64,000 bases of DNA. It comes from a gamma proteobacterium symbiont of Ctena orbiculata. GTDB taxonomy: Bacteria; Pseudomonadota; Gammaproteobacteria; Chromatiales; Chromatiaceae. Both the position numbers and the translations under genes were made by a program. Shown piece after piece: positions 679-24,667 of this stretch. The stretch lies in contig QBVD01000062.1 of the NCBI GenBank assembly GCA_003058525.1, positions 1 to 64,000 on the forward strand, written 5' to 3'. Position 1 is the stretch's first letter. Each line of letters starts with the position of its first letter. Under the pieces are notes generated by a model. The model was given only the letters and a program-made list of their open reading frames with translations. It had not been told where the DNA came from and made no database searches.

Positions 679-2745
679 CTAGCGCATAAAATCAAGCAGG
701 CCGCCACTGCCTTTGTTTTTATCGATATAGTCGGCCACCTTGTCGTGGCCATTGCTGCGTGCAATATCGTATGCGTTTTCACGGCGCAGGTTGAGATGAT
801 GGGCATCGGCCTTGACTTCCAGCAGCCGCTTTACGACTTCCATGTTGCCTTGTTCCGCCGCCAGCATCAGGGCTGAATTACCTGCATGGTTGTAATGGTT
901 AAGATCAGGGCCATATCGCAGCAGGATGTCAACGGTGTAGACGGATCCGTTTCTGGCTGCCAGCATCAAGGCGGTATTGCCGTTATCGCTTTCACGGTCT
1001 ATGTACTGTTCATTCTGTATCAGTTCATTGACTAGTTCAGCATGACCGTGGGATGCGGCACGCATCATCGGCGTAAGCCCGTCTTTGGCATGGAGATCGA
1101 TCTTAGCGCCTGATCGCATCAGCAGATAGAAGATATCTTTATTGCCCGCATCGATGGCATGATAGAGCGGTGTGCGGCCTTTCTCATCAGCCTGGTCGAC
1201 GGCTACCCCCTTTTTCAGCAACATCTTGACGATTTCAGGCTGTTGTTTGGCAACCGCCAGAATCAAAGGTGTGATGCCCTCGCCGGTGGCTTTGCTGGCA
1301 TCCGCACGTTGCACCAGTAAGAGTTTTACGAGCGTTGGATTTTTATGTTCCACCGCCATATGCAGTGGCGTTACGCCATTATCACCGACAACATTGACGT
1401 CGGCGTTGTATTCGATCAATTGCCGTGCCAACTCCAGATTGTTCTCCCTGCTGGCGAGCAGCAGCGGAGTAGGGCTTGCTGCGGATGCCAGGTTGGGATC
1501 GGCACCTTTCCCCAGCAACAGGGTTACAACTTCTTTGTGCCCCTGCCAGACACTGCGACTCAAAGGTGTGAGCCCCTCCGGGTCGAAACCGTTAATGTCC
1601 GATCCCTCTTTCAACAAGGCCTCGATCAGCGGCATCTGTCCCCGCCATGCGGCCAGATGCAGGGTACTCCAACCGGCAAAGGGATTTCTCTCTTCGTTGG
1701 CCTTGTTTCTGGACGGCATGACGGATTGGCTGACCTTGGCCAGATCGGGGAATTCGCTCCTTCGGTTCTTGGTCTGGGTGGCTATGCCACCTGCTGTCCT
1801 CAACTTTTTGGCAATCACGTGATATTTACGCAGCTCGGCCAGATCCAGTGGGGTCTGCTTGTTGCGGTTTTTCGCATTCACCTTAGCGCCACCGTTGATC
1901 AGAGCCCCGACCGTTTCTGCCTGTTTCCTGTTGGTTGCGACCAGTAACGGTGTGTTGTTGTTGGCATCATGGGTTTCAAGTTTGGCTCCGGCCTTGATCA
2001 GGCTGCGTACAATGGAGGCGTGCCCCAGACCGGCAGCGGAATGGAGCGGGGAATCGCCCAGGCTGTCACTGGTATTCGGGTTGGCGCCGGCGGCAAGCAA
2101 CATTTCAACTATTTCCTGGCGATTGTTGATTGCCGCCTCGTGAAGTGCGCTACGGCTGAACTCGTCCCGGGTGTCAGGTGAGACGTCGTTGGCGAGCATA
2201 CGTTTGATGGTCTGTGTCTTACCTGCGGCAGCTGCACGGTTGAAGAGTTCCGATATCTGTTTGTCATCCAAGCCATCCGTGGGAGATGTGGAGCCCAGAA
2301 GATCGAGTTTCTTTTGCGCTAGTTTGTGCCCCTGGAAGGCAGCCCTTTGGTACCAGTCAGTGGCTGTTACGAGATCGGCTTTAACTCCCCAGCCATGTTC
2401 GTACATGGTCCCGGTTGTGTATTGCGCTTCGATATGTTCCTGTTTAGCTGCCTGTAGAAACCAGTGATAGGCCCTAGCCGGGTCCTTTTTGACACCACGC
2501 CCTGCACGATAGAGCCCGCCAAGAGCAAATTGAGCTTCCTGATCACCTTGTTGGGCCAGGTTTTGATAGATTTCCGCCGCTTTTATGAAATTGCGCACGC
2601 GTATTGCCGCTTCCGCCTGATCATGGGTGGAGGCGTGGAGTAGCAGTGGAAAGAGGAGTAGGAGGATTAGCAGAGATGCAGCCATAGCGCGGAGTGAGGT
2701 TACATTTCCATCTCTTTTAAGCGGTGCCGTGTTTGGTTTCCACAT
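679..2745 (-). CDS. Exported Sel1-repeat and ankyrin-repeat protein
   Basis: A 688-residue protein. A basic N-terminus and a Leu-rich hydrophobic segment (LLILLLLFPLLLHAS) form a likely signal peptide. Two or three Sel1/TPR-like units follow (for example GGLYRAGRGVKKDPARAYHW), then a long series of about a dozen ankyrin repeats to the C-terminus (recurring G-x-TPL-x-x-A and LL-x-x-GA). Both are protein-binding scaffolds, so it probably acts in the periplasm or at the membrane. The start at 2745 is chosen for an AGGA sequence 7 bases upstream; it overlaps the end of the iron-sulfur flavoprotein gene by 29 bases, so the two are almost certainly co-transcribed. ATG at 2685 is the alternative. 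Its binding partner is unknown; the context suggests the neighbouring electron-transfer proteins. Confidence 0.85.
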   Translation of the reverse strand: MWKPNTAPLKRDGNVTSLRAMAASLLILLLLFPLLLHASTHDQAEAAIRVRNFIKAAEIYQNLAQQGDQEAQFALGGLYRAGRGVKKDPARAYHWFLQAAKQEHIEAQYTTGTMYEHGWGVKADLVTATDWYQRAAFQGHKLAQKKLDLLGSTSPTDGLDDKQISELFNRAAAAGKTQTIKRMLANDVSPDTRDEFSRSALHEAAINNRQEIVEMLLAAGANPNTSDSLGDSPLHSAAGLGHASIVRSLIKAGAKLETHDANNNTPLLVATNRKQAETVGALINGGAKVNAKNRNKQTPLDLAELRKYHVIAKKLRTAGGIATQTKNRRSEFPDLAKVSQSVMPSRNKANEERNPFAGWSTLHLAAWRGQMPLIEALLKEGSDINGFDPEGLTPLSRSVWQGHKEVVTLLLGKGADPNLASAASPTPLLLASRENNLELARQLIEYNADVNVVGDNGVTPLHMAVEHKNPTLVKLLLVQRADASKATGEGITPLILAVAKQQPEIVKMLLKKGVAVDQADEKGRTPLYHAIDAGNKDIFYLLMRSGAKIDLHAKDGLTPMMRAASHGHAELVNELIQNEQYIDRESDNGNTALMLAARNGSVYTVDILLRYGPDLNHYNHAGNSALMLAAEQGNMEVVKRLLEVKADAHHLNLRRENAYDIARSNGHDKVADYIDKNKGSGGLLDFMR

Positions 2746-4042
2746 TGATTCCTGTCTCTTTAAGAAAGCCTGTTGGTAGGATGCCGCCGGCGCATATGAT
2801 GGCTGCGTCATTAGGTATTACAATCTTCTCTCCCCCTTTGTCGATGGTAACTTCCTCAGGTGTGAATTCAACGACATTGGAGCTGAGCAGTAGATTGATT
2901 CTTCCTGTATCCACAGCGGCATCCACCTTCGACCGGTTTTTCTTTTTGGCCCGGCTGAAGGCGCCGCTCCGGTAGGAGAGCGTTACCGTGGTTCCCGGTT
3001 CGTCGGCAATGCTGTGGGCGGCTTCCAAGGCACTGTCACCGCCGCCGACGATCAGGACATGCTGATTCCTGTATTGTTCCGGATCGATCAGCCGGTAGGT
3101 GACTTTACTCAAATCCTCTCCCGGTACGCCGAGTTTTCTGGGTGTGCCGCGCCTGCCGATGGTGAGCAGCACCGTACGGGTATGATAGACGTCTTTATTG
3201 GTTTTGACCTCATATCCTCCCTTGTCATTAGATAGGATCTTCTCCACCCGCTCATGGTAACTGATTTTTACACCGGTTTTTTTCTCTACTTTCTGCCAGA
3301 ATTCCAGCAGTTTCTCCTTGGTTGTTTCGGTGAATTTCACCTCACCGACCAGCGGCATTTTGACGGGCGCGGTCATCACCAATTTCCCCCGGGGGAATTG
3401 AAATACGGTTCCCCCCAAGGATTCCTGTTCAACGGTCTTGTATTTTAGTTTTTTCTCCATGGATCTCAGGGAGGCGCAAAACCCAGCCGGTCCGGCACCG
3501 ACTATTAAGACATCCAGCGGTGCGGAGGCGGAGGCGCCGTTATTGAGATCGTCGACAATGTAATCCAGCGCTTTATAACCCTGTTCTATGGCGTTCCTGA
3601 TCAATCCCATGCCACCTAATTCACCGGCAATATAGATACCGGGCATACTTGTCTCGAAGTTGGGTTTCAGGAGCGGGATATCCACGCCGCGCTTTTCGGT
3701 ACCGAATACCAGGGTAATGGCATCGAACGGGCAGGCGGTCTTGCAGGCGCCGTGGCCGATGCAGTTGGTAGGTGCGATCAGTTCCGCCTTGTTGTCAATC
3801 AGGCCAAGCACAGGGTGATTTGCCTGCTCCGGACAGGCCTTGACGCAGGTGCCGCAGCCCATGCACTTCCCCGGGTCGATTAACGGATGGAGTGATGCGG
3901 GTTCTGTCAAACCGGCCTCGAACTCCTCGGTCTTCAGTGCGAGGTTCCGTTTGCTTTTGCGTTTTGTATAGATGACATAGATTAACCATACCAAAAGTAT
4001 GGGTATTGCGTATATCATGTACAGGTCTAGGGAGTACTGCAT
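2717..4042 (-). CDS. Membrane-anchored 2x[4Fe-4S] FAD/NAD(P)-binding oxidoreductase
   Basis: One N-terminal membrane segment (about residues 7-25, YAIPILLVWLIYVIY) precedes a basic stretch (KRKSKR), placing the rest in the cytoplasm. A ferredoxin domain follows with a canonical cluster motif CMGCGTCVKACP and a second, CIGHGACKTACP, in which His replaces the second Cys. Next comes a thioredoxin-reductase-like flavoprotein: FAD site IVGAGPAG, NAD(P) site IVGGGDSALEAA and a C-terminal CAGGILPTGF. No CxxC redox disulfide is present, so it is not a thioredoxin reductase; electron transfer between NAD(P)H, FAD and FeS clusters is the likely reaction. It is divergent from the cytochrome operon and could supply or accept its electrons. 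The start is the ATG at 4042; TTG at 4060 is possible. Confidence 0.85.
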   Translation of the reverse strand: MQYSLDLYMIYAIPILLVWLIYVIYTKRKSKRNLALKTEEFEAGLTEPASLHPLIDPGKCMGCGTCVKACPEQANHPVLGLIDNKAELIAPTNCIGHGACKTACPFDAITLVFGTEKRGVDIPLLKPNFETSMPGIYIAGELGGMGLIRNAIEQGYKALDYIVDDLNNGASASAPLDVLIVGAGPAGFCASLRSMEKKLKYKTVEQESLGGTVFQFPRGKLVMTAPVKMPLVGEVKFTETTKEKLLEFWQKVEKKTGVKISYHERVEKILSNDKGGYEVKTNKDVYHTRTVLLTIGRRGTPRKLGVPGEDLSKVTYRLIDPEQYRNQHVLIVGGGDSALEAAHSIADEPGTTVTLSYRSGAFSRAKKKNRSKVDAAVDTGRINLLLSSNVVEFTPEEVTIDKGGEKIVIPNDAAIICAGGILPTGFLKETGINVETKHGTA

Positions 4043-4314
4043 CTTGCTGTCTGTACTCAATATTTCAGAGAGTGTTGTAGTTCACATTTCATTAGCTCAG
4101 AGCGCCTGGATTTTACACCCTTACTCATCATTTCGGTCTCTCTGCCGAAAACATAAATGATGTCAGAGTCTGTTTTTGTGAAGCCCTTCATGGATGGGAA
4201 AAATGTCCCAACATAAGATAGCTGCATGTACTAAATTGAGGCTGATCATAAGATACAACTCAATAAAAAATGTTAATAAGTAATTGAATTTATACCAGGT
4301 TACAGGTGATATAG
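4043..4314. promoter_or_regulatory. Divergent intergenic region of the cytochrome locus
   Basis: About 270 bases separate the divergently read flavoprotein and cytochrome-b genes, so both promoters must lie here. The stretch is AT-rich near the right end (4255-4300). No operator with clear dyad symmetry was recognised, and no promoter hexamer pair is strong enough to name. Confidence 0.4.
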
Positions 4315-5226
4315 ATGAATACAGCCGCAATTCCGGCCAGCGTTAATGAGACAGTTCTTGATAGGATTCTCTCCGCATGGCAGCAACGAGCAGGCCTAAT
4401 CACAACCCTAGGATTTACACTGTTTTCCATGCTTTTGCTCTATATGGGATGGCTAAACCATACAGAAGCGGTATGGACGGCAGAATCTGGGTGGGGATAT
4501 TGGTTCGGGATTGTCGGTGGCAGCCTGATGCTGATGTTGTTGCTCTATCCCATGCGCAAGCGGCTTCACTTCATGAACAAGTGGCTGACGGTCAAGTTCT
4601 GGTTTCGCCTGCACATGGTATTTGGTGTCCTGGGGCCGGTATTGATCATGATGCATTCGAGTTTCCACATTGGCTCGTTGAATGGCCAGGTGGCCCTTTA
4701 CAGCATGTTGTTCGTGGCCATCAGTGGCCTGTTCGGCCGTTATTTCTATACCCGAATCCACTATGGTTTGTATGGTAAAAAGGCCACATTTGCCTCTCTG
4801 CATGCGGACTCGGCAGAGCTGAATAAAAAACTCGGTCCCCTGTTCGAGCTCCAGCCCAGGGCGCGAGAGATGATGAAGCAGTATGAGAAAATGGTCATGG
4901 AAGCCCCTAAAGGTCCGATTGCCAGCGCCAAGCACTGGTTCAAGATGCGGCTCATGTCCGTCAGGATCTACCCGACGGTGATGCGCGCACTGAATAAAAA
5001 ACTCCTGGCAGCCGGTCATCGAAAAAACTGGAACAGGGCCAAAGTACGGCGTAAACAACTTCGTATCCGGAAAATGCTGCTGACACATCGCAGTATACTT
5101 CGACAGATTCTCGAGCTACATTTCTACGAGAGGCTCTTCGCTATTTGGCATCTGCTTCATATGCCGCTGTTCATCATGATGGTGATAACCGGTTTTGTGC
5201 ATGTCTATGCTGTTCATGCTTATTAA
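4315..5226 (+). CDS. Integral membrane b-type cytochrome-like protein
   Basis: A 303-residue protein with about five predicted transmembrane segments: near residues 33-47, 62-78, 100-115, 125-140 and 278-298. Several His residues lie inside or at the ends of the helices (RLHMVFGVLGPVLIMMHSSFH; WHLLHMP; GFVHVYAVH), as expected for bis-His haem b ligands in diheme cytochrome b / ferric-reductase-like folds. A basic soluble section (about 150-265) separates the last helix. It is first in a plus-strand run, 26 bases before the 21-heme cytochrome gene. The most economical role is quinone- or flavoprotein-linked electron transfer across the inner membrane to the periplasmic cytochromes. Haem binding is inferred, not shown. 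Confidence 0.7.
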   Translation: MNTAAIPASVNETVLDRILSAWQQRAGLITTLGFTLFSMLLLYMGWLNHTEAVWTAESGWGYWFGIVGGSLMLMLLLYPMRKRLHFMNKWLTVKFWFRLHMVFGVLGPVLIMMHSSFHIGSLNGQVALYSMLFVAISGLFGRYFYTRIHYGLYGKKATFASLHADSAELNKKLGPLFELQPRAREMMKQYEKMVMEAPKGPIASAKHWFKMRLMSVRIYPTVMRALNKKLLAAGHRKNWNRAKVRRKQLRIRKMLLTHRSILRQILELHFYERLFAIWHLLHMPLFIMMVITGFVHVYAVHAY

Positions 5227-5255
5227 TTAACGAGTAACTGTTTTTTAGATTCGTG

Positions 5256-6830
5256 ATGATACGAAATGGCTGTTATGCCTTTTGTCTGTGTCTACTCATG
5301 CTTTGCTCTATTTCTCCTGTGATGGCTGGGAAGCTAGATCTTATTTTGATGCCTGGTCCGGTGATTTCAGGTCATGCCGAGTTTGAGGAAAAGTGCGAAA
5401 GCTGCCACGAGACACTGAAAAAGGCTGAGCAGGTGGAGCGTTGCCTTTCATGTCATGACCATAGTGATGTCGCCAAGGACATCGAACAGGGCATGGGGTA
5501 TCACGGCAGGCTTGATCCGGAACAGGCGAAAAACTGTAAGCGCTGTCATACGGAACACAAAGGCCGGGAGCGGGACATCGTCAATCTGGACAGCGAATCG
5601 TTCGATCACAGTCAAACCGATTTCAGTCTCAAGGGAGCTCACACAACCCTGACATGCCAACTCTGCCATACCCAGGAATACAAGAAATACAGCCAGGCGC
5701 CTTCTCTGTGTTTCGATTGTCATGAATCCGATGATGCCCACAAAGGGAAGCTTGGTAAGGAGTGTGAAACCTGCCATGACGAAAAGAACTGGAGCAAGCA
5801 GACCTTCGACCACGACCTTGATACGGAATACCCACTCAGTGGCAAGCACAGAGAGCTGGACTGCAGACTGTGTCACGCCGATGATCACTACAAGAACACC
5901 CCAAAGGAGTGTGTCGGCTGCCATCTGATCAATGATGCGCACAATGGGCGTTATGGCAAGGTGTGCGCCAAGTGTCACGGTACGGAAGGGTGGAAAGAAC
6001 TGGTCTTCAATCACACTGCAGATACTGAATTTTCACTGGAGGGCCGGCACAAGGATGTCCCTTGCGACACTTGCCATAAGCGTGGTCCTTATGAGAAAAA
6101 GCCCGCCAAGCACTGTTTTTCATGCCATGAAAAAGATGATGTGCACAAAGGCCGAAATGGCGAGAAGTGCGAGGATTGCCACAGCGCTGAGAGCTGGACC
6201 AAGGTGAAGTTCGAGCATGGGAATGACACCCAGTTTCCACTCAAGGGCAAACATCAGGATCTGGTATGTACCGCCTGCCATCGCACAGTGGCGATGGATG
6301 ACCTTCAAGAGGCCGATTGCATCACTTGTCATCGGCCCATCGATGTGCATAAGAATGAGCTGGGTGAAGATTGTGGTTATTGCCATAATGAACAGGGATG
6401 GAACGTTAAACTCTTTTTCGAGCACGACATCACCCGTTTTCCTCTGATCGGTATCCACAGTGTCACCACTTGTGAATCCTGCCATCTGAATGCCGAATTC
6501 CAACAAACCGATAGTGCCTGCCTTGCCTGCCATGAAGCCGAAGAGCCCCACGAGGGCCGCATGGGAGAGAAGTGCGGTGACTGCCACAATCCCAATGCCT
6601 GGTTATTGTGGACCTTCGATCATGACACCCAGACCGACTTTCCGCTGGAGGGCAAGCACGGAGAAATCTACTGTGACAAATGCCATCGGACGGATCTGAC
6701 AGAACATAAACAATCCGCTAACCACTGCTACGGCTGTCACCGGGGAGATGATATACATCGCGGCGGCTTCGGGCGTCACTGCGATCGTTGCCATAGCACA
6801 GAGACCTTCGAGGACCCAGTCATACGTTGA
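5256..6830 (+). CDS. Periplasmic multiheme cytochrome c with 21 CXXCH sites
   Basis: A 524-residue precursor with a signal peptide ending VMAGK. I count 21 CXXCH haem-attachment motifs, one per about 24 residues. The basic module is FDH-x-x-T-x-F-x-L-x-G-x-H followed by two CXXCH about 20 residues apart, seen repeatedly; the extra His residues would be distal ligands, as in the cytochrome c3/c7 class. It ends 19 bases before the next cytochrome gene, whose own N-terminus carries the same module. ATG at 5256 is taken as start; GTG at 5253 is in frame directly before it. Probable role: periplasmic electron carrier between the inner-membrane cytochrome and the giant cytochrome or outer-membrane partner. 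Confidence in cytochrome identity is high; the route is inferred. Confidence 0.92.
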   Translation: MIRNGCYAFCLCLLMLCSISPVMAGKLDLILMPGPVISGHAEFEEKCESCHETLKKAEQVERCLSCHDHSDVAKDIEQGMGYHGRLDPEQAKNCKRCHTEHKGRERDIVNLDSESFDHSQTDFSLKGAHTTLTCQLCHTQEYKKYSQAPSLCFDCHESDDAHKGKLGKECETCHDEKNWSKQTFDHDLDTEYPLSGKHRELDCRLCHADDHYKNTPKECVGCHLINDAHNGRYGKVCAKCHGTEGWKELVFNHTADTEFSLEGRHKDVPCDTCHKRGPYEKKPAKHCFSCHEKDDVHKGRNGEKCEDCHSAESWTKVKFEHGNDTQFPLKGKHQDLVCTACHRTVAMDDLQEADCITCHRPIDVHKNELGEDCGYCHNEQGWNVKLFFEHDITRFPLIGIHSVTTCESCHLNAEFQQTDSACLACHEAEEPHEGRMGEKCGDCHNPNAWLLWTFDHDTQTDFPLEGKHGEIYCDKCHRTDLTEHKQSANHCYGCHRGDDIHRGGFGRHCDRCHSTETFEDPVIR

Positions 6831-6849
6831 CTGTCATCGGAACGGACAA

Positions 6850-9800
6850 ATGATGAATATGACTCAGAACGGCAAAACAGCGTCCGATAACGGATTGACT
6901 CAACTTACTTGGTTGATGCTCATGCTGGCTGTGATTTACAGCGGGTTATTCAGCAGTCCTGCATCAGCGGTATCCACTGATTACGACCATTTCTCCACAG
7001 GATTTCCGCTTACCGGCGAGCATCGCAATGTGGAGTGTGACCAGTGCCACGACACAGGACAGTTTGCAGGCACGCCCGTGTTGTGTAACGGGTGTCATAA
7101 TGATACTGATGCCGCAGGCAAGTCGATGGACCACATTCGCAGTGATGACCAGTGCGACGACTGCCATACCACGGTCGGCTGGCATGTGGCCCGCTTTGAT
7201 CACGGCAGTATTTCCGGTGACTGTTTTGCCTGTCACAACAGCAGTGCCGCTCAGGGCAAGGGCAGTGATCATATCCTGTCGGGCAATACCTGCGAATTCT
7301 GCCATTCAACCTTCAGTTGGGCGAGGGTCAGTCACGTAGACCACACCCAGGTGACCGGCACCTGCGAAAGCTGCCACAACGGCGATATCGCGGCGGGCAA
7401 GCATGCCAGCCATATCGCCACCAATGATCCATGCGATACCTGTCATATCACCCAAAGCTGGCTGCTGGTCTTTTTCGACCACTCCAATGTGGTCAGTGGC
7501 ACCTGTGAGACCTGCCACAACGGAGTCAGTGCTACCGGAAAATCCGCATCCCATATCGTCACCTTTGAGTCCTGCGACCTTTGCCACACCACGAATGGCT
7601 GGCAGGTTGCCAATTTCTCCCACGCCGGCATCAGCGACAACTGTGAAAGCTGCCACAACGGAGTCAGTGCCACCGGTAAGAATGTCGGCCACCTGAACAC
7701 AACCGCACCCTGTGAGCTTTGTCACACCTCAACCAACTCATGGTTGGTCGTCAACTTTATCCATGGGGAGGAGGCATTTGGACAGTGCTCGACCTGTCAT
7801 GACGGTGTCACACAGCCGGGCAAGCATGCACAACATATCCAGACCACTGCGGAATGCGACCGCTGCCATACCTCGACTGAATCCTGGGATCAGGTCGGCT
7901 TCGATCATAGTGAAGTAGTGCCGGGAACCTGTGCCTCCTGTCATGATGGTGTGCAGGCGCCCGGCAAGCACGCCACTCATATCGTGACCAATGAGTCGTG
8001 CGATGTCTGTCATGCGACGACGGCAAACTGGAATGTCATCCGTTTTGACCACAGTAGTTTCGACACGGCCAGTCTCTGTTCGACCTGTCACGACGGTGTT
8101 CGGGCCACCGGCAAGCACGCCACCCATATCCAGACAACCGAGCAGTGCGATACCTGCCATAACTCCACAAACGACTGGGCCAATACCAGTTTCGATCACT
8201 CAGGTGTGGAGACTGCGGGTCTCTGTTCGACCTGTCACGATGGGACAACCGCCACCGGCAAGCACGCCGCCCATATTCAGACCACTGAGCAGTGCGATAC
8301 CTGTCACGGCTCGACCAATGCCTGGAATATCGTGACTTTCAATCACCCGGCGGATGTGGCTGGTCGCTGTTCAACCTGCCATAACGGTATTCAGGCCACC
8401 GGTAAACATGCCAACCATCTGCAGACCAACGGGGAGTGCGATACCTGCCATGTCATTACCGCATGGAATGTATCCAACTTTGACCATACCGATATAGTCA
8501 GCGGTTGCGAGTCATGCCATGACGGTGTGATTGCAACCGGCAAGCATGGCAGCCATATCCCCACCACTTCCTCCTGTGAAGCCTGTCATTCCACCAATGA
8601 CTGGACCCTCGCCAACTTTTCCCACGAGGGTGTCTCGGGTACATGTGAATCCTGCCATGATGGCAATATCGCCACCGGCAAGCATGACAACCACATCCCC
8701 ACCAACGCATCCTGCGACAATTGCCACAACACCAGTGGCTGGGCGATCAGCAACTTCGATCATGAAGGTGTGAGCGGCAGCTGCCAGTCCTGTCACGACG
8801 GCGTGCTCGCCACCGGTAAGCACGATGCCCATGTGGCCACCACCGCGGCCTGCGAGGGCTGTCATACCTCGACCACCAGTTGGGCGGAGGTCAATTTCGA
8901 CCACTCGATCGTCACCGGCGCCTGCGAAAGCTGTCATGACGGCGTCATCGCCACAGGAAAATCGGCGGATCATGTCGAGACCACGGCTGCATGTGATAAC
9001 TGCCATATCTCGAATGAGACCTGGACCAGTGTCAGATTCGACCACAGCGGCATCACCAGCGGATGCGAAAGCTGCCACAACAATGTGGATGCGATCGGTA
9101 AACCCGATACCCATATTCCGACCACTGAGCCTTGTGAAAACTGCCATAATACGGTGACCTGGAGCACCGGCAGATTCGATCATGCCAATGTGGCCGGCGC
9201 CTGCTCAAGCTGTCATGACGGTACCACCGCCACCGGCAAACCGGCGCAGCATATCCTCACCGATGCCCAGTGCGACAGCTGTCATACCTCGACCATCAAC
9301 TGGACACAGATCAGTTTCAATCACGACAATTTCCAGGTGAGCGGAAGATGTTCGGACTGCCATGACGGCACACTGGCCACGGGTAAACATGCCCAGCATA
9401 TCGAGACCACGGCCCAATGCGACACCTGTCATCTCTCCACCCTGGTCTGGACCGATACCAGTTTCGATCACAGCGGTGTCAACACTGCGGGTGCCTGTTC
9501 CACCTGCCATGACGGGACAACCGCTACCGGCAAACATCCCAGCCATCTCTCGACCACGGAAGAGTGCGATGTCTGCCATACTTCGACCACCTCATGGTTG
9601 CGGGTGACATTTGACCACAGTTCGGTACCCACCGCGGGTGTATGCTCCAGCTGTCACAACGGTATCCAGGCCACCGGCAAGCATGCGACCCATATCGATA
9701 CCAATTCCCAGTGCGATGTGTGTCATACCACGAATGGCTGGACGGTCACGACTTTCGATCATAGCGGGGTTACCGATCCCTGTGAGTCTTGCCATGACGG

Positions 9801-11811
9801 CAATACCGCCACCGGCAAACATGCGGCCCACATCCCCACCTCCTCGGCCTGTGATGTCTGCCATACCACCAATGACTGGACTATGGCCGGCTTCAGTCAC
9901 GCGGCGGTGGTCGATCCCTGCGAGGTATGCCACAACGGTGATATCGCAACCGGCAAGAGCCCATCCCATGTGCTGACCAATGCGCCGTGCGACACCTGCC
10001 ACAACACCAACAGCTGGCAGATCAGCAGCTTCAACCATGAAGGGGTAACCGGTAGTTGCTCATCATGCCATGACGGGGTACAGGCGACCGGCAAGCATGC
10101 CTCCCATGTGGCCACGACAGCCTCCTGCGAGGCCTGTCATACCTCCACCAACAACTGGCTGCAGATCAATTTCGATCACTCCGTGGTAACGGGTACCTGT
10201 GCCAGCTGTCACGATGGCAATACCGCCACCGGCAAGCCGGTCGATCATGTCCCGACCGACGCCGCCTGTGATAACTGCCATATCTCCAATACCACTTGGT
10301 TGAACGTGCGGTTCGACCATACCGGCATCGTTGCGGGATGCGAAAGCTGCCACAACAATGTGGACGCCATCGGCAAACCGGCGACCCATATCCCGACCAC
10401 CAGGCCGTGTGAGGATTGCCATACCACCGTTACTTGGGCCACGGGTACTTTCGATCACGTGGGTGTTGTCGGCACCTGCTCGAGTTGTCACAACGGCAAC
10501 ACCGCTACCGGTAAACACGCGGCCCATGTGAATACAAACGGGCAGTGCGACAGCTGTCATACCTCCACCGTGACCTGGCTGTCGGTGAATTTCGATCACA
10601 GTACGGCTACCGGCCCCTGCTCGAGCTGTCACAACGGCACCATTGCCACCGGCAAGTCGGCCAGTCATGTGGCTACAAACGCGGAATGTGATATCTGCCA
10701 CATCTCGCAGAACAACTGGGCTGCTGTGAATTTTGATCATTCAGTGGCGATCGGTGTCTGCTCCAGCTGTCACAACGGCACCACCGCGACCGGGAAGCCG
10801 GTTAACCACATCCAGACGACTTCGGAGTGCGATGCCTGCCATATCTCCCAGACCAACTGGCTGGCGGTACAGTTCGATCACACCAATGCAGCAGGCAACT
10901 GTTCGAATTGCCACGACGGTATCACCGCCACCGGTAAGGATCCCGGGCATGTGCCGACCACGGCACAGTGTGATGATTGCCATCTCTCAACATCCAACTG
11001 GCTGAATGTCCGTTTCGTTCATGGCAACGTGGCCGGTACCTGTTCCACCTGCCACAACGGTGTCACCGCAACCGGTAAACATGCCTCGCATATATCAACC
11101 TCGGCTCAGTGCGACGTATGCCACACCTCAACGTCCGACTGGAGGAGTGTGAACTTCAGTCATAGCGGAATAACCACAGGCTGTTCGAATTGCCACAATG
11201 GCACATTGGCCACCGGCAAGCCGGTCAACCACATACCGACGACGGAAGAGTGCAACGTCTGCCACTTGTCCACCAGCAACTGGCTGAATGTAAGATTCAG
11301 CCATAGCGGTGTGGCCGGCACCTGCTCCAACTGCCACAACGGTAATTTCGCCACAGGCATGCCACCCGGACATGTACCGACCACGGCCCAGTGCGACAAC
11401 TGTCATACCTCCACCACCACGTGGACCGCCGTAACCTTCGATCACACCGGTGTTACCGGGAACTGTGACGCCTGCCATAACGGTACGATTGCCACGGGCA
11501 AACCCAACGGGCATTTCGTGACCACAGTTCAGTGTGACAGCTGCCATACTACGAATGGCTGGTTACCGGTGACCAACTACAGCCATATTTCGAGCAGATA
11601 TCCGGGTGATCATCGCGGTAATTTTGGTTGCAACGTCTGTCACACGAGCAACAACGAATCAGTGCCCTGGCAATATCCCACCTATGCTGGAACTTGTGCA
11701 GGCTGCCATGCGGGTGACTACAGGACAGGCGAAGACGACCATAATGGCCTGAGTGCCGACAGAAACTGTGGTCAGAGTGGTTGCCACAGGGTCAGTGATC
11801 GTGAATGGTGA
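6850..11811 (+). CDS. Giant multiheme cytochrome c, 67 CXXCH plus one CX4CH
   Basis: A 1,653-residue precursor. The signal peptide (hydrophobic LMLMLAVIYSGLF, cut near SPASA) fixes the ATG at 6850. My count by eye is 67 CXXCH motifs plus a last CGQSGCH. Motifs 2-65 form 32 tandem units of about 46 residues: C-x-x-CH-[ND]G-x-x-ATGK-x-x-x-H-[IV]-x-T-x-x-x-C-x-x-CH-x4-6-W-x3-5-F-[DS]H. Each unit offers two extra His, enough for bis-His coordination of both haems. One N-terminal module matches the 21-heme protein; the C-terminal 110 residues break the pattern. No transmembrane anchor or lipobox was seen, so it is periplasmic or secreted. The gene starts 19 bases after the 21-heme gene and is followed by an outer-membrane barrel gene. 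Likely role: long-range haem wire or electron store. Confidence 0.95.
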   Translation: MMNMTQNGKTASDNGLTQLTWLMLMLAVIYSGLFSSPASAVSTDYDHFSTGFPLTGEHRNVECDQCHDTGQFAGTPVLCNGCHNDTDAAGKSMDHIRSDDQCDDCHTTVGWHVARFDHGSISGDCFACHNSSAAQGKGSDHILSGNTCEFCHSTFSWARVSHVDHTQVTGTCESCHNGDIAAGKHASHIATNDPCDTCHITQSWLLVFFDHSNVVSGTCETCHNGVSATGKSASHIVTFESCDLCHTTNGWQVANFSHAGISDNCESCHNGVSATGKNVGHLNTTAPCELCHTSTNSWLVVNFIHGEEAFGQCSTCHDGVTQPGKHAQHIQTTAECDRCHTSTESWDQVGFDHSEVVPGTCASCHDGVQAPGKHATHIVTNESCDVCHATTANWNVIRFDHSSFDTASLCSTCHDGVRATGKHATHIQTTEQCDTCHNSTNDWANTSFDHSGVETAGLCSTCHDGTTATGKHAAHIQTTEQCDTCHGSTNAWNIVTFNHPADVAGRCSTCHNGIQATGKHANHLQTNGECDTCHVITAWNVSNFDHTDIVSGCESCHDGVIATGKHGSHIPTTSSCEACHSTNDWTLANFSHEGVSGTCESCHDGNIATGKHDNHIPTNASCDNCHNTSGWAISNFDHEGVSGSCQSCHDGVLATGKHDAHVATTAACEGCHTSTTSWAEVNFDHSIVTGACESCHDGVIATGKSADHVETTAACDNCHISNETWTSVRFDHSGITSGCESCHNNVDAIGKPDTHIPTTEPCENCHNTVTWSTGRFDHANVAGACSSCHDGTTATGKPAQHILTDAQCDSCHTSTINWTQISFNHDNFQVSGRCSDCHDGTLATGKHAQHIETTAQCDTCHLSTLVWTDTSFDHSGVNTAGACSTCHDGTTATGKHPSHLSTTEECDVCHTSTTSWLRVTFDHSSVPTAGVCSSCHNGIQATGKHATHIDTNSQCDVCHTTNGWTVTTFDHSGVTDPCESCHDGNTATGKHAAHIPTSSACDVCHTTNDWTMAGFSHAAVVDPCEVCHNGDIATGKSPSHVLTNAPCDTCHNTNSWQISSFNHEGVTGSCSSCHDGVQATGKHASHVATTASCEACHTSTNNWLQINFDHSVVTGTCASCHDGNTATGKPVDHVPTDAACDNCHISNTTWLNVRFDHTGIVAGCESCHNNVDAIGKPATHIPTTRPCEDCHTTVTWATGTFDHVGVVGTCSSCHNGNTATGKHAAHVNTNGQCDSCHTSTVTWLSVNFDHSTATGPCSSCHNGTIATGKSASHVATNAECDICHISQNNWAAVNFDHSVAIGVCSSCHNGTTATGKPVNHIQTTSECDACHISQTNWLAVQFDHTNAAGNCSNCHDGITATGKDPGHVPTTAQCDDCHLSTSNWLNVRFVHGNVAGTCSTCHNGVTATGKHASHISTSAQCDVCHTSTSDWRSVNFSHSGITTGCSNCHNGTLATGKPVNHIPTTEECNVCHLSTSNWLNVRFSHSGVAGTCSNCHNGNFATGMPPGHVPTTAQCDNCHTSTTTWTAVTFDHTGVTGNCDACHNGTIATGKPNGHFVTTVQCDSCHTTNGWLPVTNYSHISSRYPGDHRGNFGCNVCHTSNNESVPWQYPTYAGTCAGCHAGDYRTGEDDHNGLSADRNCGQSGCHRVSDREW
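7030..11560 (+). repeat. Tandem array of ~138-bp coding repeats (32 dihaem units)
   Basis: The core of the giant cytochrome gene is a DNA tandem array, each unit 135-144 bp and encoding two haem sites. Adjacent units have diverged, but units nine apart are more alike. A block starting at 8077 matches one starting at 9349 (offset about 1,272 bp), shown by the shared atypical NNVDAIGKP segment in the units near 9064 and 10336 and by matched long linkers. Confidence 0.85.
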
Positions 11812-11823
11812 TAACTCGTTTCT

Positions 11824-11861
11824 TGCCTGGTAATCTTCATGTATTTCGAGATTGCCAGGCA
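11824..11861 (+). terminator. Inverted repeat after the giant cytochrome gene
   Basis: TGCCTGGTAATCT at 11824-11836 pairs with AGATTGCCAGGCA at 11849-11861 (12 of 13). No T run follows, so it could be a transcript-stabilising hairpin or a weak terminator between the cytochrome genes and the outer-membrane gene. Confidence 0.4.
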
Positions 11862-11986
11862 GTTAGCCAGACTTATCCAAGCTTTAGCATTCTAGTTCTA
11901 GCGAGTGGGATCTATTTCTTGTTGTATTCTTGCGAGCGCCTGGATAATCGCTTTTCCGTAGGTTATGCAATAAGGTAAACAAGTCA

Positions 11987-14488
11987 GTGCGGTATATGAT
12001 TCAATCAAGGTTCTATCTCTGGCTGTTGCCAATGCTTCTGTTATGTGTAGGAGCGGCAGGTGCGGCAACCCAGGTATTGGATCGAATCGAATTGACCACC
12101 GAGGGTAAGGATGATGTTGTTAATGTCTATTTCAATATCCCCGTCAGATACGTCTCCCATCTGATCAACGAATCCGGCAATGAAGTCGGCGTCCAATTGA
12201 AGCTTGGTCAGACCGCCGATATCGAGCTGACCGATCTGGTTGAGAGTGATCAGCTGACCTGGAGTCCGAGTGCTGCGGTCCCATTGGAGAAGGTGGAATT
12301 TCAGGGCAATATCATCGGTACATCCACCCTGCTGGTATCCTTTGCCGCTTCAGTGAGCGATGTGAAAATACGGCAGGGACGTGATTTCTATGTCATGCAG
12401 TTTATCCTGCCGGAATCACCGCGGGTTTCGGGTATGGCGGGTTCTCTTGCCAAGGCCATCGATGTCCCGGTACCGGAAACCCGTGCACCGCTCAGTGTCA
12501 AATCGCTGCCCCTGGTCATCTATGTGATCAATCTCGGCACTCAGTCGGAACCTGTGGATTTTACCGAGATTGCACCTGTGGCGGTGGGTGAAAATCAGTT
12601 GCTCTACACCACCAAGACCAAGGTGGAGGAGCGCACCCTGTACCGATTGCGCTTAGGTTTCTTTCGCACCAAGCTTGAGGCCCAGGAGCAACTGAAGGCA
12701 GTAAAGAATTTCTATCCCGATGCCTGGATCGATACCGCGGATATCCAGGAGCGGCGGCAAGCCTTTTTTGATCGGGGGATAGAGCATATCTTCAGTGACG
12801 GACTGATGGAAGAACCGCAGCTGGTGGACGTGGATCCCCGGCTTACCGAGATGATGGAGGTAATCCGCCGCACTATAACCGCGGGGGAGTATGCGAAGGC
12901 GGTCAGGTTACTCGAGGCGCTGCTGGAGGAGCCGGAGAATATCTACTCCAAAGAGGCGCTTGAGCTCCTGGGACTCTCACGCGAGAGAAACGAACAGATC
13001 GCTCATGCCAAGGGGGAGTACCGTCGCTATCTGGAAAAGTATCCGGAAGGTGAGGATGCCGAGCGTGTCTGGCAACGCCTGCTGGGTCTGGAAACCGCAC
13101 CCATGCGGCCAAAGGAGTCACTGCGTAAAAAACAGCAGGAGGAAGAGGGCGAGGATGGACCGAAGGCGGTATGGGATACCTATGGCAGCCTTTCCCAGAA
13201 CTATCGCAGGGACAGCATTGACAGCCCGTTTGTCGAGGATGAGGACAGCGTCACCCGGTCGGAGATCGAGACCTTCATCGATCTGAATTCGAGGCGCAAG
13301 AGTGAAGATTTCGATATGCGTTTCAAGGTCACCGGCAGCTATATCCTAGACCTGTTGGATGACGGAGACGGAAATGACACCACCCTCAGTGACGCCTACA
13401 TCGACGTCGAGCATCTTGACAGTCGCACCAGTGCCCGTTTCGGTCGCCAGCGCTTGCGTTCCAGCGGCATCCTGAACCGTTTCGACGGTCTCGTGCTGGG
13501 CTACCAGTTGACCCCTGATATTACCCTTCGGGCGACGGCTGGTTTACCGGTTGAACGGTCACGCGACACCTTTTTGAACGATCATAAGCAGTTCGCCGGC
13601 CTCAGTGCCGACATCTCAAGCATCTTTAAAAATTGGGATCTCAGCCTCTTCTTAGTGGAACAGCGTGTCGATGATCTGGTAGACAGAAGGGCGATAGGGG
13701 GTGAAATACGCTACTTCGATCCCAACAAATCGCTGTTCAGCCTGCTCGATTACGATATCTTTCATGAAGAGGTGAGTATCTTCATGTTGCAGGGCAACTG
13801 GCGGTTTGAGAATGAGACCCGCATGTATATGAATCTCGATTATCGGAATACACCGATTTTGAGTACATCCAATGCATTGAGTGGTCAGCTCGATCCCGAT
13901 ACGTCGTTACCGATCGAATCGATCGAAGAGCTGCAGAACTTCTTCAGCGATGATGAGATCTATGAGTTGGCGCGGGATAGAACCGCCGAGACTACCTCGC
14001 TATCCCTCGGCATCAATCATCCGTTGTCGAAATCCCTGCAGCTGAGTGGCGATGTGACGGTCAGCAAGACCGGCGAAACACCCGCTTCCGGCGGGGTACA
14101 GGCGACAGAGGAGACTGATAATGAGTTCTTCTACACCTTTCAGGTGATTAAAAACGACCTGTTGAAACAGGGGGATATCGGTATTCTCAGCCTGCGCTAT
14201 TCGGATGCCAACACCTCGGATACATTCCGGGTGGGTATCAGCAGTCGATACCCGATAACCAATAACTGGCGGATCAATCCCCGTATCAATTTCTCCTATC
14301 GCACGAATGACGACAACGATGGTTCACGAAAAACGATCAGCCCCTTTATGCGCATGGATTACCGCTACCGCAAGAACATGACATTCGAACTGGAAGGGGG
14401 GCTTAACTGGTTCGAAGAAGACGATGGTACGGAAGTGACCGATTTTACCGATTATTTCTTCTATGGTGGTTATCGTTGGGATTTTTAA
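11987..14488 (+). CDS. Outer-membrane beta-barrel protein with SPOR and TPR-like N-terminal domains
   Basis: An 833-residue protein with a signal peptide (LWLLPMLLLCVGAAGAA). Residues about 30-150 are a beta-rich domain, perhaps AMIN-like. Residues about 205-245 resemble a SPOR domain (LYRLRLGFF-x-T-x-x-EA), which in known families binds denuded peptidoglycan. Residues about 275-375 are TPR-like helices. From about 415 to the end alternating amphipathic strands rich in Tyr/Phe/Arg, ending in YRWDF with a terminal Phe, indicate an outer-membrane barrel of perhaps 16 or more strands. It lies 175 bases behind the giant cytochrome, on the same strand. A barrel beside multiheme cytochromes recalls porin-cytochrome conduits (MtrB-type), although I see no sequence likeness to MtrB. 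GTG at 11987 is taken as start; ATG at 11996 is possible. Confidence 0.7.
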   Translation: MRYMIQSRFYLWLLPMLLLCVGAAGAATQVLDRIELTTEGKDDVVNVYFNIPVRYVSHLINESGNEVGVQLKLGQTADIELTDLVESDQLTWSPSAAVPLEKVEFQGNIIGTSTLLVSFAASVSDVKIRQGRDFYVMQFILPESPRVSGMAGSLAKAIDVPVPETRAPLSVKSLPLVIYVINLGTQSEPVDFTEIAPVAVGENQLLYTTKTKVEERTLYRLRLGFFRTKLEAQEQLKAVKNFYPDAWIDTADIQERRQAFFDRGIEHIFSDGLMEEPQLVDVDPRLTEMMEVIRRTITAGEYAKAVRLLEALLEEPENIYSKEALELLGLSRERNEQIAHAKGEYRRYLEKYPEGEDAERVWQRLLGLETAPMRPKESLRKKQQEEEGEDGPKAVWDTYGSLSQNYRRDSIDSPFVEDEDSVTRSEIETFIDLNSRRKSEDFDMRFKVTGSYILDLLDDGDGNDTTLSDAYIDVEHLDSRTSARFGRQRLRSSGILNRFDGLVLGYQLTPDITLRATAGLPVERSRDTFLNDHKQFAGLSADISSIFKNWDLSLFLVEQRVDDLVDRRAIGGEIRYFDPNKSLFSLLDYDIFHEEVSIFMLQGNWRFENETRMYMNLDYRNTPILSTSNALSGQLDPDTSLPIESIEELQNFFSDDEIYELARDRTAETTSLSLGINHPLSKSLQLSGDVTVSKTGETPASGGVQATEETDNEFFYTFQVIKNDLLKQGDIGILSLRYSDANTSDTFRVGISSRYPITNNWRINPRINFSYRTNDDNDGSRKTISPFMRMDYRYRKNMTFELEGGLNWFEEDDGTEVTDFTDYFFYGGYRWDF

Positions 14489-17765: not shown

Positions 17766-17856
17766 GGAGAGGTGGCAGAGCGGTTGAATGCGGCGGTCTT
17801 GAAAACCGTTGAGGGTTAGTAGCCCTCCCAGGGTTCGAATCCCTGCCTCTCCGCCA
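17766..17856 (+). tRNA. serT: tRNA-Ser (anticodon UGA)
   Basis: Acceptor stem GGAGAGG pairs with CCTCTCC, followed by discriminator G and encoded CCA. The anticodon loop is CTTGAAA (anticodon TGA) on a five-pair stem; a long variable arm (GAGGGTTAGTAGCCCTC) and the T-loop GGTTCGAATCC are present. It is the integration site of the island to its right, and the insertion leaves the tRNA intact. Confidence 0.95.
17795..17856 (+). repeat. attL core: 62-bp direct repeat within tRNA-Ser
   Basis: The 62 bases from the anticodon stem to the CCA end are repeated exactly at 27599-27660. Flanking bases differ on both sides, so the repeat is exactly this length. This defines a 9.8-kb element integrated at the 3' part of the tRNA gene. 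Confidence 0.95.
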
Positions 17857-17863
17857 TGAAATC

Positions 17864-17899
17864 AAAGGCTTACATCTATCAGGGTGTGGGCTTTTTTTA
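17864..17899 (+). terminator. Island-supplied terminator behind tRNA-Ser
   Basis: An imperfect hairpin (AAAGGCTTACA against TGTGGGCTTT) ends in seven Ts, eight bases after the tRNA. It replaces the original terminator, which is now stranded at 27664-27690. Confidence 0.55.
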
Positions 17900-17912
17900 T
17901 GCCAGATCCTCA

Positions 17913-17936
17913 AATTGGTCCAAATTTGGTCCACTC
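17913..17936 (+). repeat. Putative integrase arm-type site, left end of island
   Basis: Two TTGGTCCA boxes (17915-17922 and 17926-17933) lie in ATTGGTCCAAATTTGGTCCA. A nearly identical double box occurs at 27476-27496 near the right end. Paired short repeats inside both ends are what arm-type integrase or Xis sites look like; binding is inferred. Confidence 0.4.
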
Positions 17937-18047
17937 CTAAATAATCGCCTACAATAAGGTACAGCAGCGTACAAATAAACAAGCCCCCAAGGTGCGTCGA
18001 CACCAAGGAGGCTTTGACCACTACCCAACCTGGTCAGGAGGTTCGGC

Positions 18048-18089
18048 ATGGCTACCCAGAAGCATAACACTCAATTCTGTGAGGCGTGA
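18048..18089 (+). CDS. Possible 13-residue leader peptide before the integrase gene
   Basis: ATG GCT ACC CAG ... TGA encodes MATQKHNTQFCEA. It has a good Shine-Dalgarno (CAGGAGG) 6 bases upstream and its stop lies one base before the integrase ATG, an arrangement suited to translational coupling. It may simply be chance. Confidence 0.3.
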   Translation: MATQKHNTQFCEA

Positions 18090-18090
18090 T

Positions 18091-19158
18091 ATGGCCTCTA
18101 TCGTCAAACGTGAAGGCAAAAAGGGATCCACCTATAGGGTGAGAGTCCGAAAAGGTGGAAGGTATGTCTCAAAGACGTTTACCCGTTTGACTGATGCAAA
18201 ATCTTGGGCATCGGAAATGGAATCGAAGATCGACAGCCGGCAACTACCGTCTGCCGAAGCTCTCAAGCATTCTCTGGCTGACCTCATAGACAGGTATCTC
18301 GAGAATGAGCTGGGAGAGGTCAAGACCGCAAAGGATAAGGCCCGGCATCTCAGGTGGTGGAAAGATCAGGTTGGTGGGGTCAAGCTGGCCGACATTACAC
18401 CAACCCTGCTGTCTGAATACCGGGACAAACTAAAGAAAAGGATGCAGCCGGGTACAGTCAACCGCTATCTGACCAGTATTTCGCATGCCTTCAGTGTGGC
18501 AGTCCGTGAATGGGGCTGGATCGAGTTGAATCCTGTTTCCAAGGTTCGAAAGTTAAAAGAACCGCGGGGTAGGGTGCGGTTCCTGAGTGAGGATTCTGTC
18601 GATCAACAGGGTAGGGCGGTCCACGGTGAAAGAACTCGACTTCTCGATGCCTGCCATAAATCCCGTAGTCCTGTCCTGCATGACATTGTGGTGCTGGCGC
18701 TCTCAACTGGGATGCGTCAGGGCGAGATTCTGAATCTGACCTGGAAGGATGTAGATTTTCGGGATGGTCGTATCACTCTACTCGATACCAAAAATGGTGA
18801 TATCCGAGCAATACCAATCATAGGTATGGCGCTCGAACTACTGAAAAAGCGCGCCAAGGTTAGAAGACTTGATACTCAACTTGTCTTTCCGGATAAATCC
18901 GGGAAGGCGCCGGCAAAGTTTCGGGATGCGTGGCTGGCGGCTCTCGAACGGGCTGAGATTGACGATTTTCGTTTCCATGACCTTCGGCATACAGCGGCAT
19001 CGTATCTCGCTATGAGCGGCGCAACGCTGGCCGAGATTGCAGAAATACTCGGTCATAAAACGCTAGCTATGGTAAAGCGTTACAGCCATTTCTCAACTGA
19101 TCACGTGAGCGGTGTTCTTTCTAAATTGGATGACCGCATGTTCGGGGGTGGCTCATGA
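18091..19158 (+). CDS. int: Tyrosine recombinase (island integrase)
   Basis: A 355-residue phage-type integrase. An N-terminal arm-binding region (MASIVKREGKKGSTYRVRVR) is followed by a SAM-like core-binding domain (about 60-160) and the catalytic domain. The catalytic residues are visible: Arg in STGMRQGEIL, Lys in the following hairpin (LDTKNGD), H-x-x-R in FHDLRHTAAS, His/Trp position in LGHKT, and Tyr in VKRYSHFS. It catalyses integration at and excision from the tRNA-Ser att site. It reads inward from attL. The ATG at 18091 is chosen over an earlier in-frame codon at 17992 because family members start near this point and GAGG precedes it. Its stop overlaps the next gene by 4 bases. Confidence 0.95.
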   Translation: MASIVKREGKKGSTYRVRVRKGGRYVSKTFTRLTDAKSWASEMESKIDSRQLPSAEALKHSLADLIDRYLENELGEVKTAKDKARHLRWWKDQVGGVKLADITPTLLSEYRDKLKKRMQPGTVNRYLTSISHAFSVAVREWGWIELNPVSKVRKLKEPRGRVRFLSEDSVDQQGRAVHGERTRLLDACHKSRSPVLHDIVVLALSTGMRQGEILNLTWKDVDFRDGRITLLDTKNGDIRAIPIIGMALELLKKRAKVRRLDTQLVFPDKSGKAPAKFRDAWLAALERAEIDDFRFHDLRHTAASYLAMSGATLAEIAEILGHKTLAMVKRYSHFSTDHVSGVLSKLDDRMFGGGS

Positions 19159-19784
19159 CAGAATCAAAAAGGCTTTCTTGTAAGATTACGTTTACTAAAG
19201 CTCAGACAGATGCCCTTAAGAAAATCTGTGCTAAACCTGACTTCTTAAGCCAGATTTCTGTAGTTATATTAAATCAAATTTATTGGGATGCGTTTAGAGA
19301 AACAATTGACGAAAGAAATCAGGCATTAAAAAAGATCAAAGGCTATGCCAAGAAGATATTAAGTGAAAAGAAATATCTTTTTGGTATTGATTTGTACGGG
19401 GTTAAAGACATCGATTTTAATAAATTCGAAAAACACATTTCTTCATTAGAGCCGGTCAAAAAAATATCACGCACTGAGAATGCATTGTTTGCCATTGCCT
19501 ACATCTTAAGGAAGAATGGCTATTCAATAAATTTGAATCCTACTAAAAATGAGATAGGGGAGTTTCTTACAACGGCAGAAATTGTTTTTAATGTAGCAGG
19601 TATAAACGCTACACGAGAAAGCATTGAGAAAGCTGCCCGTCGAGCTGGAATTGAATCTGGCAACGGCCAAGTTCCCTTTCACCCCAGTATGTTACCTTTG
19701 TCACCTTTAGGGTGGAACGCGGAATGTTCATATGCTACATCGAATGGCTGTTTTAGCGCGACTTACACCTATAGTGCGATCTAA
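19155..19784 (+). CDS. Island protein of unknown function
   Basis: A 209-residue, lysine-rich soluble protein (MTESKRLSCKITFTKAQTDA), coupled to the integrase by ATGA. No signal peptide, membrane helix or known motif is seen. Its composition is more AT-rich than the integrase, which suggests a separate origin. I do not recognise it. Confidence 0.65.
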   Translation: MTESKRLSCKITFTKAQTDALKKICAKPDFLSQISVVILNQIYWDAFRETIDERNQALKKIKGYAKKILSEKKYLFGIDLYGVKDIDFNKFEKHISSLEPVKKISRTENALFAIAYILRKNGYSINLNPTKNEIGEFLTTAEIVFNVAGINATRESIEKAARRAGIESGNGQVPFHPSMLPLSPLGWNAECSYATSNGCFSATYTYSAI

Positions 19785-19921
19785 TATCTCTCCTAATTTA
19801 AGACATATTATTATTTTTTTGTTTATTTTTGTCCTAGATAATTCTGCCGGCTGAATTTACATTTATCCTCAATCAATAAGAATAATTCTCAGTATTTTTC
19901 ATAAATGTAGAGGATATAGCA

Positions 19922-20128: not shown

Positions 20129-20185
20129 TAAGGATTAACAAAAACAGCTAATAAGACAAACCATTTTTTGAAGTGGAATCATCAC

Positions 20186-22569: not shown

Positions 22570-22619
22570 TGATTCATACTATGAAATGTTGTAAAATTAG
22601 TAACATAGGAGACATCGGA

Positions 22620-24659: not shown

Positions 24660-24667
24660 GAATCTAC

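Follow-up and report, generated by a model that had tools for sequence, protein, structure and literature searches.

The closest described counterparts of the locus analysed here are the PCC3 porin–cytochrome clusters, which were defined by He et al. (2017; PMC5566968) as comprising a porin, an extracellular multihaem cytochrome (MHC), a periplasmic MHC and an inner-membrane protein (IMP), and which are presented as four-component systems in PMC10734462 too. According to the available parts of the first account, the extracellular MHCs have a median of 34 haems and the periplasmic ones a median of 21, with 22–39 amino acids per haem and a maximum of 85 haems in Agromonas oligotrophica, the figure for Amphritea atlantica being 63; other partly available papers give 10–57 haems for PCC3 subunits (PMC13386937) and 86 haems in an ANME-2c archaeon (PMC9012536), and PCC3 is described as functionally unverified in the accessible text of PMC12442390. 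The PCC3 clusters share with the present locus the gene set, the IMP motifs, a 21-haem periplasmic MHC and a low ratio of residues to haem, and they have likewise been found in gammaproteobacterial animal symbionts; the lucinid symbiont genus dealt with here was not found named in the available portion of PMC5566968.

The window, by which is meant the whole stretch of 64,000 nucleotides analysed, belongs to a 4.74-Mb assembly in 112 contigs, for which Ca. T. endolucinida is the best named match (97 %). The relatives of this genome are members of Candidatus Thiodiazotropha, symbionts of lucinid clams. Between positions 4315 and 14488, the window carries, in this order, genes for the IMP, a 21-haem cytochrome, a cytochrome with 67 CXXCH motifs and one CX4CH, and a large outer-membrane protein; judged by sequence and gene order, the large cytochrome is the ‘extracellular’ member of a PCC3 porin–cytochrome cluster. 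The gene of a flavoprotein lies next to that of the IMP and is divergent from it. The chance that we are dealing with a PCC3 trans-envelope conduit, in which the 67+1-haem protein lies outermost and the NAD(P)H-linked flavoprotein at the inner end, is put at about two in three. New here are the association of PCC3 with the flavoprotein and a series of haem counts across the family. The features concerned, with the evidence for each in brackets, are the following.

2717..4060, minus strand: membrane-anchored flavoprotein of 447 amino acids, with a hydrophobic N-terminal helix, two 4Fe–4S motifs and an FAD/NAD(P) two-Rossmann domain (Pfam, NCBIfam and PDB relatives)
4315..5226, plus strand: PCC3 IMP of 303 amino acids, with two WX3HX13H motifs and one SGXXG (motif script)
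5253..6830, plus strand: predicted periplasmic multihaem cytochrome with 21 CXXCH motifs in seven trihaem repeats (motif count; Pfam Cytochrome_C7)
6850..11811, plus strand: ‘extracellular’ PCC3 multihaem cytochrome with 67 CXXCH and one CX4CH (motif script; genus alignment)
6850..6969, plus strand: predicted Sec signal peptide, residues 1–40, ending in ASA (hydropathy; cleavage site placed by eye)
7930..9201, plus strand: first copy of an 18-haem block, haems 14–31 (alignment to the second copy)
9202..10476, plus strand: second copy of the 18-haem block, haems 32–49 (alignment to the first copy)
11767..11787, plus strand: C-terminal CX4CH of the large cytochrome, the probable 68th haem site (invariant in 14/14 genus sequences)
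11987..14488, plus strand: PCC3 outer-membrane protein with a SPOR domain, a TPR-like N-terminal part and a C-terminal Phe (Pfam; relatives)
12614..12730, plus strand: SPOR domain of that porin, residues 210–248 (Pfam)

The frame of the large cytochrome, at 6850–11811 on the plus strand, is open throughout its 1,653 amino acids. A motif script finds in it 67 C..CH, one C....CH and no C...CH, which is exactly the count that an earlier note on this DNA had made by eye, and every cysteine of the protein falls within these 68 motifs; 500 shuffles of its residues gave a mean of 1.0 CXXCH and a maximum of six. With the mature protein taken from residue 41 (1,613 amino acids), there are 23.7 amino acids per haem site, in agreement with the same note’s estimate of one site per about 24 residues, and the spacing from one CXXCH to the next is 16 at first and 22–26 afterwards, with a single step of 32 close to the end. 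The mass to be expected for the mature protein carrying 68 haems is about 212 kDa. As regards the start of translation, an alternative in-frame ATG at 6748 would run into the preceding gene, and the start at 6850 yields a normal signal peptide. The protein has no lipobox, since its first cysteine comes only at residue 63 or later. Its position outside the cell is a prediction, taken from the PCC3 literature, against which it may be said that the signal peptide is a plain one and that a lipid anchor is missing. CcmF, which serves haem attachment, is encoded in the window’s genome. A literature search found no report of a 67-haem multihaem cytochrome.

The gene is repetitive, and in two genus relatives (G010 and G012) it is split across contig ends, as might be expected if the large cytochrome were an artefact of assembly or annotation; the probability of this is nevertheless negligible, given its record across the genus. 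Strong matches to the large cytochrome are present in 18 of the 20 genus relatives searched, and 13 of the 20 have the full-length 67+1 frame, among them the single-contig genome G015; another single-contig genome, G779, which is of the same species as the window’s, has 67+1 motifs as well. When the 14 full-length genus sequences, including the window’s, are aligned, 67/67 CXXCH and the CX4CH are invariant, as are 982/1,613 mature columns, and gaps occur in just two alignment columns from residue 41 on. At the DNA level, Tandem Repeats Finder (TRF) reported no array at 6000–12500. The two single-contig genomes, the near-gapless alignment and the absent DNA array together exclude an artefact; the earlier note’s worry that sequencing collapse might have distorted the length is likewise settled, in that the single-contig genomes hold 67+1 and the length is genuine. 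Most of the genus thus keeps to one number of haems, from which a few members depart: 61+1 motifs are present in G004 and G018 and 49+1 in the PCC3 locus of G013, and in the genus search G006 gave a weak match to the large cytochrome and G014 none.

According to the motif script, haems 2–64 alternate between an A-type (32 copies) and a B-type (31 copies), with a His at position 17 and a Gly at position 12 each present in 32/32 A-type units, and a Trp and an [FVY]xH each present in 31/31 B-type units. The 32 dihaem units that had been proposed from the first look at the sequence are therefore regular pairs as claimed, but they amount to 31 full A–B units plus a lone A at haem 64; the extra His and the Trp, for which conservation had also been proposed, are retained across the 14 genus sequences (His in 31/32 A-type and 31/31 B-type units; Trp in 31/31). 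Since each repeat pair offers two distal His, the haems of the large cytochrome are probably bis-His ligated and closely packed along a single chain. Pairwise comparison of the 31 two-haem units places the greatest similarity at an offset of nine units; when the order of the units was shuffled 5,000 times, the best of 15 offsets reached this peak twice. The two 18-haem blocks are identical at 281/424 aligned residues and at 71 % of the DNA; the presence of two diverged copies indicates that the chain grew via block duplication with divergence afterwards, and the large cytochrome as a whole was built up by dihaem units plus this 18-haem duplication.

How the window’s protein compares with PCC3 cytochromes at large was assessed from a search with the IMP across 369 genomes of the class, which identified 42 genomes with a total of 47 places at E≤1e-20. 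Loci were taken at 45 of the 47 places, the window and G009, a close relative of it, being excepted, together with genus and family loci, and the first frame in the direction of transcription that contained 12 or more CXXCH was treated as periplasmic (except at L116, for which see below); five cut extracellular cytochromes and five loci lacking such a frame, one of each from the genus, were left out of the haem tally. Outside the genus, the 42 complete periplasmic cytochromes have 21 haems (34 proteins), 24 (six) or 18 (two), all divisible by three, in keeping with the trihaem repeat of the window’s 21-haem protein. The 37 complete extracellular cytochromes outside the genus, from 33 loci, range from 15 to 133 CXXCH with a median of 23; their CXXCH count is odd in 30/37, and a CX3CH or CX4CH lies no more than 70 residues from the C-terminal end, also in 30/37. 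Three of the 37 have more than 67 CXXCH, namely 69 (L076), 73 (L104) and 133 (L081). The earlier suggestion that placed the window’s protein towards the top of the known range is accordingly to be trimmed: with 67 haem sites it is in the upper tail of the PCC3 family but not extreme, and a record is ruled out by the 85 and 86 haems of published proteins as well as by the 69, 73 and 133 of the sample. A series of single chains with 15 to 133 CXXCH amounts to a natural set of lengths for testing long-range haem conduction. Up to 113 haems have reportedly been seen in Methanoperedens, a figure that a literature search did not bear out.

Three loci met with in this survey deserve a description of their own. 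At L081 (G246:C17), a stop-free frame from 4177 encodes 4,086 amino acids with 133 CXXCH, ten CX4CH and one CX3CH, a count above the published 85 and 86; TRF finds an array there of about three 339-base copies with a 76 % match, so the copies are not identical. L104 (G070:C126) is a PCC3 cluster in which four or more extracellular-type cytochromes follow one another, with 23, 33 and 73 CXXCH and, in a cut one, at least 21, and its flavoprotein is on the IMP’s strand. L116 (G013:C4) encodes a second giant Thiodiazotropha cytochrome of 1,879 amino acids with 70 CXXCH and one CX4CH, in which the N-terminus looks, by eye, like that of a lipoprotein and the interval pattern recurs after 34 haems; neither an IMP nor a 21-haem frame was found in the 14 kb around it.

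Of the traits by which PCC3 is recognized, the window shows a repeat-rich large MHC with 23.7 amino acids per site, a 21-haem MHC and an IMP of about 300 amino acids with the expected motifs. In the IMP, these motifs read W96-x3-H100-x13-H114, S137GLFG and W278-x3-H282-x13-H296, and His100, 114, 282 and 296 are invariant in 55/55 rows of an alignment that omitted one fetched match of fewer than 230 residues, which makes it probable that the protein carries two b haems. Its hydropathy profile peaks in five regions, the PCC3 criterion being five transmembrane helices, and an AlphaFold2 model built on 48 rows (47 of the 54 fetched relatives plus the window) is all-helical with a pLDDT of 86. Searches for known folds were less telling: no Pfam family matched at E≤0.001, a profile search of PDB sequences gave nothing relevant at E≤1, the best Foldseek matches of the model were to cytochrome b561 at E 0.69 or worse, and VIA-align returned mostly generic helical bundles, with b561 rows covering model residues 160–269 and missing the four His. 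The outer-membrane protein is homologous to the large proteins of other PCC3 loci, and its C-terminal part is probably a beta-barrel; one of eight porin relatives gave a barrel match, weak and below the cut-off, and the window’s protein has a weak BamD-like match, also below the cut-off. The TPR-like region recurs in relatives, and a SPOR domain is present in the window’s porin and in seven of the eight other PCC3 porins scanned. SPOR domains bind peptidoglycan, which suggests that the PCC3 porin contacts peptidoglycan through this domain.

Among better-known cytochromes, MtrA, MtoA and DmsE have in common with the window’s protein that they form the wire of a porin–cytochrome system, but they have ten haems, as opposed to 68 sites, and MtrA lies inside its porin, according to the partly available literature, whereas the window’s large cytochrome is predicted to be outside. 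The large cytochrome does exceed the cut-off of TIGR03508 (201.0 against 192.2), yet because this score is summed over ten repeat stretches, membership of the MtrA/DmsE decahaem family is rejected, 68 sites in 1,653 residues being set against ten in about 300. Pfam Cytochrome_C7 and the TIGR04257 triheme domain also match above their cut-offs. A 12-haem profile has as its nearest solved sequences 6r2q_A (E 7.6e-7), which is presumably MtrA although the label retrieved with the entry reads otherwise, and UndA (E 1.9e-4). With the cytochrome c7-type chains and the OmcS, OmcE and OmcZ nanowires, the protein shares a His-ligated multihaem chain; unlike OmcS, OmcE and OmcZ, which are polymers of small subunits, it is one chain of covalent repeats. 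That it forms a single continuous haem wire, as the earlier note envisaged, is plausible, and the idea of a wire is in print for PCC3 in the available text of PMC5566968 and PMC10734462. An AlphaFold2 model of a 12-haem piece (haems 46–57) had a mean pLDDT of 58.7 and a pTM of 0.28, values too poor for reading wire geometry; its alignment of 40 rows comprised the window and 39 of 67 chosen stretches, periplasmic-type and the weakest ones being left out, and slipped repeat registers (361 columns for 281 residues) may be behind the poor model.

The flavoprotein beside the IMP matches NCBIfam YpdA below the cut-off, and the solved structures nearest to its Rossmann part are YpdA-type and ferredoxin–NADP reductases; the CxxC pattern of thioredoxin reductases also fits an Fe–S motif and is hence uninformative here. 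Conservation was read from 53 rows, which represent 50 distinct genes, as three were fetched twice (L082/L129, L087/L148 and L104/L166). The four cysteines of the first cluster are present in 53, 48, 53 and 53 of the 53 rows, with Ser or Thr in place of the second in five, and the C, H, C and C of the second cluster, CxxHxxCxxxCP, are each present in 53/53. A hydropathy peak above 1.6 precedes the first cluster in 40/53 rows, 5/53 being unscored as their first motif was unmatched. In the window, the second motif is at 3731–3763 on the minus strand (residues 100–110), with His replacing the second Cys, and it possibly holds a 4Fe–4S cluster with a His ligand.

The flavoprotein is tied to PCC3 by co-occurrence. 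Among the 369 genomes of the class sample, the IMP is present in 42, the flavoprotein in 43 and both in 41, so that 2 of the 327 genomes without an IMP have the flavoprotein (Fisher p 7e-51, a value that ignores shared ancestry). Copy numbers of the two are equal in 41/41 genomes, five of which have two of each. At 35 of the 47 IMP places, the flavoprotein gene is no more than 1.5 kb upstream of the IMP, divergent at 34 of the 35; at the other 12, it is 1.5–12.8 kb away on the contig (six places) or off the contig (six). The flavoprotein is thus retained irrespective of its adjacency to the IMP. In a phylum sample of 398 genomes, which overlaps the class sample by at least two genomes (G000 and G120), the same six genomes carry the IMP at E≤1e-20 and the flavoprotein, and a seventh has a weak IMP match (3e-11). 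For the reading of these figures, the IMP cut-off of E≤1e-20 was chosen after a gap in E-values had been seen (at 1e-3, 62 class genomes are listed), the flavoprotein cut-off of E≤1e-60 was chosen after earlier scores had been seen, and in both the class and the phylum searches the best four flavoprotein candidates per genome were scored.

The exceptions are few. G224 has an IMP and, at the cut-off, no flavoprotein, and a 69-bit partial match adjoins its IMP; G132 and G211 have a flavoprotein and no IMP, G211 being 72 % complete with pieces of cytochrome at a contig end and G132 having none. Of the 22 genus genomes, 19 contain the flavoprotein. In G006 and G014, strong matches to the 67-haem, 21-haem and flavoprotein genes are absent together, and in G011 the contig stops about 1.4 kb past the 21-haem gene, with no copy of the flavoprotein found elsewhere in the genome. 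We propose, from these sequence data, that the flavoprotein is an overlooked fifth component of PCC3 which would connect the conduit with NAD(P)H, whether in place of quinones or in addition to them. In the available part of the PCC3 account in PMC5566968, no mention was found of such a flavoprotein or of the SPOR domain of the porin. The same source likens the two HX13H pairs of the IMP to those that hold two b haems in NADPH oxidases and ferric reductases (the FRD superfamily); the likeness extends to the FAD/NAD(P) module, which is encoded beside the window’s IMP. Unlike its FRD/NOX counterpart, the window’s flavoprotein is separate and has two Fe–S clusters and a YpdA-like domain.

In the mechanism proposed, electrons would pass from cytoplasmic NAD(P)H to the FAD and then the two 4Fe–4S clusters of the flavoprotein, from these to the two b haems of the IMP, on to the 21-haem cytochrome that would span the periplasm, through the porin with its SPOR domain near the peptidoglycan, and finally to the 68-haem cytochrome outside the cell, such that the logic of a ferric reductase or NADPH oxidase would be placed ahead of a cytochrome wire. 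MtrA, with its 10 haems, is about 100 Å long, as quoted in the available text of PMC5566968, and if length scales from it, the 68-haem chain when fully extended would reach several tens of nanometres. The further-going statement, that PCC3 in general is a five-component NAD(P)H conduit whose covalently continuous 21- and 68-haem cytochromes reach tens of nanometres out and bypass the quinone pool, is tentative, its odds being a little short of even. If the flavoprotein belongs to PCC3, which is widespread, the conduit becomes directly testable at its cytoplasmic end, and both the direction of flow and the redox range can be reasoned about.

In the model already in print for PCC3, the IMP exchanges electrons with the quinone pool and the system takes them up from Fe(II) or minerals, in which case the flavoprotein would serve some other end. 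PMC5566968, in its available part, proposes a quinone-reactive IMP and a conduit ending at the quinone pool, and in Sideroxydans CL21 the IMP of one PCC3 copy is increased in iron-oxidising cells according to the accessible text of PMC12442390, an increase that speaks against a purely outward role. Such a model nevertheless leaves unexplained why the flavoprotein tracks the IMP in 41/42 genomes and in copy number, and both PCC3 clusters of Sideroxydans ES-1 are at lower levels with Fe(II) than with thiosulfate (available text of PMC8788666), so that a dedicated iron oxidase is the less likely in that strain; on balance, it seems unlikely, though well worth keeping in mind. The published expression data for PCC3 thus point in both directions. 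Against the conduit proposed here, the large PCC3 cytochrome Slit_1448 has the value 0 in all eight columns of the accessible proteome table of S. lithotrophicus ES-1 (PMC12016527).

Returning to the conduit that ends at NAD(P)H, flow through it would be reversible; the resemblance of the cytoplasmic end to a low-potential NAD(P)H/ferredoxin module slightly favours the outward direction, in which NAD(P)H would be disposed of to an acceptor outside the cell whenever oxygen runs short. Outward flow would enable a sulphur-oxidising symbiont to shed reductant outside under oxygen shortage; inward flow would supply NAD(P)H for carbon fixation. Inward flow to NAD(P)H must work against the membrane potential. 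If the proposal is right, sulphur-oxidising symbionts of clams might exchange electrons with solids or with neighbours; the literature available to us, in part as excerpts, yielded no report of extracellular electron transfer or of large multihaem cytochromes in Thiodiazotropha.

A long cytochrome could also act mainly as a capacitor that buffers electrons during swings in oxygen in the clam gill or the sediment, without contact to a distant partner. Sixty-eight haems could store about 68 electrons, haem number ranges from 15 to 133 across the 37 complete relatives, and storage is raised in the available part of PMC10734462. We regard this as improbable, more so than the quinone-linked model, since a capacitor needs no porin or 21-haem partner, yet both lie beside the large cytochrome, in the window as well as in those relatives whose loci can be read in their entirety. 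The conduit with the flavoprotein at its inner end is the preferred explanation.

Two other features of the window may be recorded. On the minus strand at 679–2811, adjoining the flavoprotein gene, there is an exported-looking protein with Sel1 and ankyrin repeats, which could meet the animal host, although none of its NCBIfam matches reaches the respective cut-off. At 17766–25244, beside a tRNA-Ser(TGA), lies a phage-like element that encodes integrase, primase-like, major head and repressor-like proteins.
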